A program made the translations under genes and the position numbers. A stretch of 64,000 bases of DNA from Halococcus qingdaonensis (GTDB taxonomy: Archaea > Halobacteriota > Halobacteria > Halobacteriales > Halococcaceae). Position 1 is the first letter of the stretch. Every line of letters begins with the position of its first letter. Shown piece by piece: positions 50,089 to 52,775 of the stretch. Where the stretch lies: NCBI RefSeq assembly GCF_024508235.1, contig NZ_CP101943.1:1054001-1118000 (forward strand), written 5' to 3'. The notes under the pieces were generated by a model. The model did no database searches, was not told where the DNA came from, and saw only the letters and a list, made by a program, of their open reading frames with translations.

Positions 50089-50658
50089 GTGGGGCTCGAC
50101 GAGCGCCGCGAGCGCGAGAAGGTCTATCAGCCGGCCGAGGACTCCCACCTGCTGGCGACGGTCGCTCGCGGCGAGGTCACCCCCGCCGACCGCGCGCTCG
50201 ATGTCGGGACTGGATCGGGCTACGTCGCGACCGCGATGGCCGAGACCGGTGCGACGGTCTACGGTGTCGATCCGAACCCACACGCCTGCCAGCAGGCCCG
50301 CGAGAGCGGGATTCGAGTGGTGCAGGGCGATCTCACCGAACCATTCGAGGATGGCGTGTTCGACCTCGTGACGTTCAATCCGCCCTATCTGCCGACCACG
50401 CCCGACGAAGCGGTCGGCGACTGGATGGAGGTGGCGCTCGCCGGCGGCGAGAGCGGGCGCGCGGTGATCGAACCGTTTCTCGCCGGCGTCGGGCGCGTGC
50501 TCGCGCCAGAGGGGCGGGTGCTCATGCTCGTGAGCAGTCTGAGCGGGTTCGACACCGTCGTCGACCTGGCGAACGAGGCCGGCTTCACGGCGACGACCGT
50601 CGACCAGGACTCGTTCCCGTTCGAGACGCTCTCGATCCTCCGACTCGATCGCGATTAA
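50089..50658 (+). CDS. HemK2/Mtq2-type N5-glutamine methyltransferase
   Basis: A 189-residue SAM methyltransferase. It has motif I ALDVGTGSGYVATAM, the acidic contact GVDPNP, and the catalytic NPPYLPTTP (NPPY) motif near residue 100. Archaeal HemK2 methylates the GGQ glutamine of release factor aRF1. GTG 50089 is favoured, with a GGTGAG sequence upstream; GTG 50080 in the same frame overlaps the MscS stop and is the alternative. Its stop codon lies inside the palindrome that precedes the methionine synthase genes. Confidence 0.88.
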   Translation: MGLDERREREKVYQPAEDSHLLATVARGEVTPADRALDVGTGSGYVATAMAETGATVYGVDPNPHACQQARESGIRVVQGDLTEPFEDGVFDLVTFNPPYLPTTPDEAVGDWMEVALAGGESGRAVIEPFLAGVGRVLAPEGRVLMLVSSLSGFDTVVDLANEAGFTATTVDQDSFPFETLSILRLDRD

Positions 50659-50680
50659 TTACCTAGGTGCATAATCGCGA
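50649..50680. promoter_or_regulatory. 32-bp imperfect palindrome upstream of methionine synthase genes
   Basis: Outer arms TCGCGATTA (50649-50657) and TAATCGCGA (50672-50680) are perfect complements. The centre ACCTAGGT (50661-50668) is itself a palindrome with exactly the same midpoint. Only three positions (ATT versus GCA) break the symmetry, so 13 of 16 pairs match. It lies 5 bp upstream of the TATA box AAATATTAA (50686-50694) and 38 bp before the ATG at 50719. Candidate operator for a dimeric regulator; it also covers the last codons of the HemK2 gene. Confidence 0.65.
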
Positions 50681-50685
50681 GTAGC

Positions 50686-50694
50686 AAATATTAA
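50686..50694 (+). promoter_or_regulatory. TATA box for the methionine synthase operon
   Basis: AAATATTAA is 25-33 nt before the ATG at 50719, giving a nearly leaderless message. Confidence 0.65.
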
Positions 50695-50718
50695 GCGCCG
50701 TCATTCCCCATCCCACCT

Positions 50719-51723
50719 ATGACGGAATTCGTCGCGACGACGCCCGGCGTGTTTCCGCTGCCCGACTGGGCGAAGGACCAGTTGGGGAGCCTGAAGGGCC
50801 ACCAGAAGGAGGACCTCGTCGACGGCAGCGAGGGGACCGAGATCACGGACGTCTACGGGGAGACCCGGGCGACCGTCGCCGACTGGCAGGCGACCGCCGG
50901 ACTCGACAGGGTCGTGGAAGGGCAGCTCCGCTGGGACGACATGCTCGCCCACCCGCTCTGCGTCCACGATGCCGTCGAGACAAGGGGTATCGTCCGCTAC
51001 TACGACAACAACAACTTCTATCGGGAGCCGGTCGTCTCCGGCGAACTCACCTTCGACGGCGATCTCGCCGACGATCTCGACGCGCTTGCCGAGCTCGCTC
51101 CCGACGCGCCGACGCAGGCGGTCGTTCCCGGTCCGTACACGCTCTCGGAACTCGCGACCGACGAGTTCTACGGCGACGAGGCGGCGTTCCTCGATGGCAT
51201 CGCGAACTTCCTCGCGGGCGAGGTGCGAGCGTTTTCCGATGTCGAGACCGTCTTCGTCCTGGAACCGTCACTCGTGACGAACCCGCCGAGCGATGGTGAG
51301 GACGAGCACGCGAGCGAGGCCATCGACCGCGTGGCCGACGCGACCGACGCCGACGTCGTGGTCCAGACCTACTGGGGCGCGCTCACCGAGAAGGTCCACG
51401 CCCACCTGCTCGACGCGGACGTCGACGCCGTGGGCTACGACTTCGTCTCGAATCACGAGGACAACCTCTACAACATCAACGAATACGGAACGAAGGAGGG
51501 GATCGCGCTCGGGCTGGCCGACGGCCAGAACACGCTGGTCGAAGAGCCCGAGAAGATCGCCGAGCGTGTCGCGTGGGTCGACGAGCAGACGCCCGGTGCG
51601 GAGTTCGAAACCATGTACGTCACCACCAACACCGAACTGTTCTACCTGCCGGTGAGTCGCTGTGTCGAGAAGCTTGAAGCGCTGGCTGCGGGCGCTGCCC
51701 GCGCCGCGGAGGTGGCCCAATGA
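50719..51723 (+). CDS. MetE-like domain protein, apparently without zinc ligands
   Basis: A 334-residue protein of the cobalamin-independent methionine synthase/UROD-like barrel type (TTPGVFPLPDWAK, GPYTLSELA). The place that carries the zinc-binding HxC in the catalytic partner reads VVVQTYWGALTE, and the later Cys is absent, so it probably is not catalytic. It likely binds folate or another methyl donor, or scaffolds the partner. Its stop overlaps the partner's ATG by four bases. Confidence 0.8.
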   Translation: MTEFVATTPGVFPLPDWAKDQLGSLKGHQKEDLVDGSEGTEITDVYGETRATVADWQATAGLDRVVEGQLRWDDMLAHPLCVHDAVETRGIVRYYDNNNFYREPVVSGELTFDGDLADDLDALAELAPDAPTQAVVPGPYTLSELATDEFYGDEAAFLDGIANFLAGEVRAFSDVETVFVLEPSLVTNPPSDGEDEHASEAIDRVADATDADVVVQTYWGALTEKVHAHLLDADVDAVGYDFVSNHEDNLYNINEYGTKEGIALGLADGQNTLVEEPEKIAERVAWVDEQTPGAEFETMYVTTNTELFYLPVSRCVEKLEALAAGAARAAEVAQ

Positions 51724-52775
51724 GCCGCGGGCAGTTCCGGCCAGCCGACCACCCGAACGAACACTTCATCCTCACCACCGTCGTGGGGAGCTACCCGAAA
51801 CCGAAGTGGCTCGATCGCGTGCGCGAACTCCACGACGATCCCGAGGGCGAGTTCGACGAGAGCCAATGGGAGGAGGCGACCGACGACGCCGCCCGCCTCA
51901 TCACCCACGAGCACGAGCGCGCGGGGCTCGACGCCGTCGTCGACGGCGAGATGAGACGGAATGAGATGGTCGAGTTCTTCGCCGATCGCATCGAGGGCTA
52001 CGAGTTCAATGGACCAGTCAAGGTCTGGGGCCACAACTACTTCGACAAACCCTCGGTCGTGAACGACGTCGAGTACGACGACTCCTGGCTCGTTTCGGAG
52101 TTCGAGTTCACCGACGGCGTGGCCGATCGCCCGGTGAAGGTGCCGATCACCGGGCCCTACACGCTCGCCAGCTGGAGTTTCAACGAAGCCTACGAGGACG
52201 ATCGCGAGCTCGCGCTCGCGCTCGCGGATCTCGTCAACGAGGAGATCCAGAAGCTGGTCGACGCCGGCGCGCGCTACATTCAGATCGACGAGCCCGCCCT
52301 CGCCACGACGCCCGACGATCACGCGATCGTCGGCGAGGCGCTCGACCGCATCGTCGCCGACCTCCCCGAGGAGGTACGGATCGGCCTGCACGTCTGCTAC
52401 GGCGACTACTCGCGGATCTACCCCGAGATCCTGGAGTTCCCGATCGACGAGTTCGACGTCGAACTCGCCAACGGCGACTACGAGCAGCTCGACGTGTTCA
52501 CGGAGCCGGAGTTCGACCTCGATCTCGCGCTCGGCGTCACCGACGTCCACGTCGCCGAGGTCGAATCGGTCGCCACGATCAAGGCGAACATCCAGAAGGG
52601 CCTGGAGATCGTCCCGCCCGAGCGACTGACGGTGAGCCCCGACTGCGGGGTGAAGCTCCTCCCGCGGGACGTGGCCTATGGCAAGATGGAGAACATGGTC
52701 ACGGCCGCTCGCGAGGTCGAGCGCGAGCTCGACGCCGGCGAGATCGAAGTCGGTGCGGCGGTCGCCGACGACTGA
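51720..52775 (+). CDS. MetE-type methionine synthase catalytic subunit
   Basis: A 351-residue core MetE with all four zinc-site residues visible: His224 and Cys226 in GLHVCYGDY, Glu249 in FDVELANGD, and Cys309 in SPDCGVKLL. Other family motifs are TTVVGSYPKP at the N-terminus, DGEMRRNEM, ITGPYTLA and QIDEPAL. It transfers a methyl group to homocysteine to make methionine. Short archaeal core MetE proteins may use a corrinoid- or other C1-linked methyl donor instead of triglutamyl folate; the donor here is unknown. Second gene of a two-gene operon with a non-zinc paralogue. Confidence 0.88.
   Translation: MSRGQFRPADHPNEHFILTTVVGSYPKPKWLDRVRELHDDPEGEFDESQWEEATDDAARLITHEHERAGLDAVVDGEMRRNEMVEFFADRIEGYEFNGPVKVWGHNYFDKPSVVNDVEYDDSWLVSEFEFTDGVADRPVKVPITGPYTLASWSFNEAYEDDRELALALADLVNEEIQKLVDAGARYIQIDEPALATTPDDHAIVGEALDRIVADLPEEVRIGLHVCYGDYSRIYPEILEFPIDEFDVELANGDYEQLDVFTEPEFDLDLALGVTDVHVAEVESVATIKANIQKGLEIVPPERLTVSPDCGVKLLPRDVAYGKMENMVTAAREVERELDAGEIEVGAAVADD

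Follow-up and report, generated by a model that had tools for sequence, protein, structure and literature searches.

A conserved 15-bp site at metE, metK and a universal XRE-CBS gene points to a putative methionine/SAM control circuit in Halobacteria

This study revealed that promoters of metE (methionine synthase), metK (SAM synthetase) and the gene of an XRE-HTH protein with CBS domains (XRE-CBS) share a conserved 15-bp site in the class Halobacteria. The sites, their positions, their conservation and the identities of the genes are direct observations, and the shared site points to a putative methionine/SAM control circuit. We consider XRE-CBS, with a probability of roughly 75%, to be an autoregulated methionine/SAM regulator that has the metE box as one of its sites, a reading in which we infer the binder, the ligand and the direction of control from sequence. 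A universal candidate regulator can now be named together with its 15-bp site and core targets, and a function can be offered for a widespread, uncharacterised family of archaeal HTH-CBS proteins, which we take to be COG3620.

The metE promoter lies in a 64-kb window of Halococcus qingdaonensis, the window being the whole stretch of DNA that was analysed. Here metE forms an operon of two genes, and the following features are found at the locus:

50089 to 50658, plus strand: HemK-like methyltransferase gene upstream of metE, with its stop codon inside the left arm of the 32-bp palindrome.
50649 to 50680, no strand: 32-bp palindrome TCGCGATTAATTACCTAGGTGCATAATCGCGA, 13 of 16 pairs, with accidental outer arms.
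50658 to 50672, plus strand: 15-bp box ATTACCTAGGTGCAT (ATWACY-N3-RNGCAT, centre 50665), a predicted regulator site, identified by conservation.
50679 to 50684, plus strand: BRE-like GAGTAG (consensus GRRTRG), from aligned metE promoters.
50686 to 50694, plus strand: TATA box AAATATTAA, with bases 1 to 8 the same in each of the first 42 aligned metE promoters.
50699 to 50710, plus strand: start-proximal element CGTCATTCCCCA (consensus CGKYATNNCSTA), in the conserved columns +13 to +24 after TATA.
50719 to 51723, plus strand: metE part 1, first gene of the operon (MetE N-terminal-like, 334 aa; Pfam PF08267, PF01717).
51720 to 52775, plus strand: metE part 2 (catalytic domain, methionine synthase, 351 aa; PF01717 with E=8.5e-56, NF003317 above cut-off).

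The first-pass annotation had described a concentric 32-bp palindrome just upstream of the metE TATA box and proposed it as the operator of a dimeric or tetrameric regulator sensing methionine, SAM or cobalamin. The palindrome is present as described, with 13 of 16 pairs matching around an axis at 50664.5 and a gap of 5 bp between its end and the TATA box, and the 32-bp sequence occurs once in the whole genome. As symmetry alone it is within chance expectation: 107 centres with at least 13 of 16 pairs were counted in 2.06 Mb of the same genome (about 3.3 per 64 kb), and the window itself holds two. Its left outer arm overlaps the HemK-like methyltransferase gene at the 3' end of that gene, including the stop codon (50656-50658). 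Only 2 to 10 of the 16 pairs match at 56 other metE promoters, and the symmetry has already dropped to 8-10 pairs in the three relatives with MetE at 94-97% identity. Since the outer arms are unconserved in relatives, the 32-bp palindrome is not supported as the operator and, its frequency being at chance level, was rejected as a functional unit. The functional guess of the annotation was nevertheless largely right and only the boundaries of the element were wrong, the conserved unit being the 15 bp from 50658 to 50672. This pseudo-palindrome, nested in the 32-bp palindrome and kept across the class beside the metE TATA box, is a good candidate for a dimer-type operator.

Promoters of metE were compared over the family of H. 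qingdaonensis and a spread of the class, in an alignment anchored on the TATA 8-mer AAATATTA, which is present in all of the first 42. They contain a gapless conserved block that comprises the 15-bp box, the BRE GRRTRG, the TATA 8-mer and CGKYATNNCSTA at +13 to +24, with the centre of the box normally 21 bp before the TATA box. Of 57 promoters, 51 match the 15-bp box at this exact position, allowing no more than one mismatch, and all 57 do so once the position may vary by up to 3 bp; one of the promoters read (L230) has only a degraded box, and in the divergent family-6 genome G038, which stands beyond the 57, the box is absent from the metE promoter. The genomes compared are related rather than independent, and several families retain the box but not its flanks. 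No site in the window other than that of metE matches the box with one mismatch or fewer. The right half, GCAT, departs from a full palindrome in most genomes, and this conserved half may tune affinity at metE. The start-proximal element is conserved at metE and partly at the winged-helix gene described below, and it exceeds the usual -10 region.

We scanned 76% of the H. qingdaonensis genome (2.06 Mb) with a weight matrix built from the metE box, and searched 100% of the genome (2.70 Mb) for exact patterns. Besides metE, the scan returned ATAACTACTGGTTAT before metK and ATTACCCACGGTTAT before the XRE-CBS gene, both of which fit this 15-bp frame in palindromic form. The full palindrome pattern ATWACYNNNRGTWAT has exactly two matches in the entire genome, in the promoters of XRE-CBS and metK, and no match in four runs of 2.06 Mb of Markov-simulated sequence. 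At least one match, and mostly one to three, was found in every one of 59 haloarchaeal genomes, in which a control pattern mostly gave zero; in all 41 genomes whose matches were listed, one of them lies in the XRE-CBS promoter. The recurrence upstream of related methionine and SAM genes that had been anticipated for the operator was therefore found: class-wide for metE, and also for metK and the gene of the CBS-domain candidate regulator. A link to cobalamin found no evidence.

The metK promoter served as an independent test, which is not circular because the motif was derived from metE. Among 80 named haloarchaea (the closest being Halococcus morrhuae and H. thailandensis, with metK 99 and 98% identical), 72 have the box with at most one mismatch and 36 have it exactly, whereas some 308 kb of flanking and coding sequence gave a single background match. 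In most cases the ATG follows 72-75 bp after the start of the box, and in 62 of 71 promoters the centre of the box lies 32 bp before a TATA-like AAGTTATA. This is about one helical turn further out than the 21 bp at metE. Three forms of the box are seen at metK, with both halves ATWAC-like, with GCAT as the right half, or with ATGC as the left half. Swapped or flipped half-sites occur at metK as well as in winged-helix gene promoters, a pattern that fits a symmetric dimer. These data also bear on the possibility that the conserved block is merely an unusual core promoter, an extended BRE/TATA with a start-proximal element and no gene-specific regulator. The TATA box, the BRE and the start-proximal element of metE are indeed very conserved themselves. 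However, at metK the 15-mer stands at a different distance from a different TATA sequence, at the XRE-CBS gene it is close to the start codon, and elsewhere it hardly occurs at all, which makes this explanation highly improbable.

The XRE-CBS gene of H. qingdaonensis lies outside the window (C1:384110-384649) and encodes a protein of 180 aa in which an HTH_3/HTH_31 domain is followed by a C-terminal pair of CBS domains. The gene is present as a single copy in 59 of 59 Halobacteria genomes, with a nearly invariant HTH region, and across the phylum one homolog per genome was found in 100 of the 148 genomes sampled. In each of the 30 XRE-CBS promoters read, the palindrome ATWACY-N3-RGTWAT precedes the start codon by 22-29 bp. 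As would be expected of a regulon, the same 15-bp site is shared by metE, metK and the XRE-CBS gene, and the candidate regulator is present wherever the site is used (59 of 59 genomes for XRE-CBS, nearly all of the promoters read for the metE box). Because the site is in its own promoter everywhere and its gene is universal and single-copy, XRE-CBS is the best candidate for the regulator.

A site in the promoter of a regulator does not prove autoregulation, and a third regulator could bind all sites, with the XRE-CBS gene merely one of its targets; half-sites related to those of the box are also present at the promoter of an NhaC-superfamily transporter. Against this, the XRE-CBS promoter carries the most symmetric and most constant of all sites in every genome examined, including two small genomes that lack metE (G018 and G024) and yet keep both the XRE-CBS gene and its palindrome, and the gene is single-copy and universal. 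We therefore regard a third regulator as unlikely.

When 59 genomes were searched with a profile of the metE promoter, metE was recovered together with a single further promoter that recurred; the gene behind it encodes a winged-helix protein some 90 aa long. This gene is often near mre11/rad50, and in several genomes (e.g. at loci L099 and L103) it is followed by an Mre11-like gene. Its promoter copies the metE design, with box, BRE and TATA at identical spacing: 28 of 30 promoters (L108-L137) have the box centre 21 bp before TATA, the other two being without a recognisable TATA, and the box is reversed in some genera. The winged-helix protein, or a paralog of it, could itself bind the sites, as it has a winged-helix fold and its promoter repeats the geometry of metE in either orientation. 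However, orthologs were not found in the genus Halococcus and in two related genera, all three of which keep the metE box, so that the gene looks like a target rather than a regulator. In addition, its box is upstream of TATA, as at the target metE, and not at the position of an autorepressor, and the other paralogs seen in the family of H. qingdaonensis have different promoter elements. This alternative was rejected as quite improbable. Genome G059 apparently has no winged-helix ortholog either, and in the two genomes without metE the winged-helix query matches a different paralog best. A second winged-helix paralog (L141-L158) has a different, strikingly conserved promoter, which suggests another small regulon.

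For XRE-CBS as the regulator, the positions of the sites suggest two modes of control. Archaeal activators usually bind upstream of BRE/TATA, and repressors act near the start codon, as a general rule (PMC5937170). The metE and metK sites, at 21 and 32 bp on the same helix face upstream of BRE/TATA, suit an activator, and the site just before the start codon of the XRE-CBS gene suits autorepression. A dimer of XRE-CBS would bind ATWACY-N3-RGTWAT or variants with one half substituted, for instance by GCAT, and the metE site at 50658-50672 would be one member of a small methionine/SAM regulon common to the class. At metE and metK, bound XRE-CBS would probably be activating by aiding the binding of TFB/TBP, and at its own gene it would repress. 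Judging from the pathway and the domain, the CBS pair is probably a sensor of SAM, the end product of both targets, or may respond to a related adenosyl compound; CBS pairs also bind AMP and ATP. If the pair senses SAM, methionine synthase and SAM synthetase would follow the supply of SAM. In a wider picture, XRE-CBS would be a class-wide and perhaps phylum-wide master regulator of the methionine-SAM cycle, which activates metE and metK from helically phased sites, represses itself and controls the winged-helix regulator, thereby linking SAM status to a DNA-repair locus. We hold this extension tentatively, at somewhat less than an even chance.

Bacteria control their methionine and SAM supply by means of MetJ, SahR and riboswitches, and we know of no described archaeal counterpart. 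MetJ is a ribbon-helix-helix protein whose regulon is marked by tandem met boxes AGACGTCT, and SahR and SamR are ArsR-type regulators. In Halobacteria, the conserved box is ATWACY-N3-RNGCAT rather than AGACGTCT, and the candidate regulator is of the HTH_3/HTH_31 plus CBS type rather than ArsR-type. The regulons of MetJ, SahR and SamR in Proteobacteria have methionine synthase and SAM synthetase among their core targets, and the MetJ core also takes in its own regulators and a methionine transporter (PMC4239095). The likeness thus consists in one regulator with a short palindromic site and the same two core enzymes, whereas the circuit proposed here would operate on archaeal TATA/BRE promoters with an XRE-HTH and CBS candidate and the site ATWACY-N3-RGTWAT.

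TFB-RF1 of Pyrococcus and GvpE of Halobacterium bind a semi-palindromic site directly upstream of BRE/TATA (PMC5937170). The sites at metE and the winged-helix gene (21 bp) and at metK (32 bp) are placed in the same manner. In contrast to these systems, the candidate belongs to another protein family, it also has a repressor-like site before its own start codon, and activation is here only predicted. The uncharacterised archaeal HTH-CBS proteins likewise have an HTH followed by a CBS pair, and it is for such a protein that a regulon and a site are now proposed.

TrmB of Halobacterium regulates metabolic genes through the site TACT-N7-8-GAGTA; it resembles the present case in being haloarchaeal, in acting on metabolism and in its TACT...GAGTA-like site. 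It was rejected as the metE regulator, since the spacing from TAC(T/C) to GAGTA is about 15 bp and GAGTA is not conserved, being the BRE of some families only and replaced elsewhere, e.g. by GGATGG. A literature search covering the regulation of methionine in haloarchaea, regulators of the HTH-CBS type, COG3620 and the control of metK did not find the circuit, nor a target, site or ligand for archaeal HTH-CBS proteins; most subscription journals were outside its scope, so that priority is unproven. The proposed circuit is accessible to standard techniques, with Haloferax volcanii or Halobacterium salinarum as the host.

Further box-like matches, which we treat only as leads, are those at a methyltransferase gene, a membrane protein gene and the NhaC-superfamily transporter gene. 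The sequence ATTACTAYYGAGCATTT or a near-copy recurs before the gene of a protein of about 130 aa (L182, L184 and L185), one homolog of which has no Pfam match. Another recurrent match, ATTACCCATRCGCATAA, was rejected as a site of methionine genes because it sits downstream of the inorganic pyrophosphatase gene; it is highly conserved just 3' of this gene in two families (L168-L175). Matches of the form ATTAC..GAATTA precede the NhaC-superfamily transporter (NCBIfam name ArcD), a possible further target that was left uncounted, and the promoters of this transporter (L188-L217) contain palindromes with related half-sites. The transporter could be a methionine transporter. In H. qingdaonensis itself, two box-like sites (C1:22405-22450) lie between the transporter gene and a divergent aminotransferase gene.
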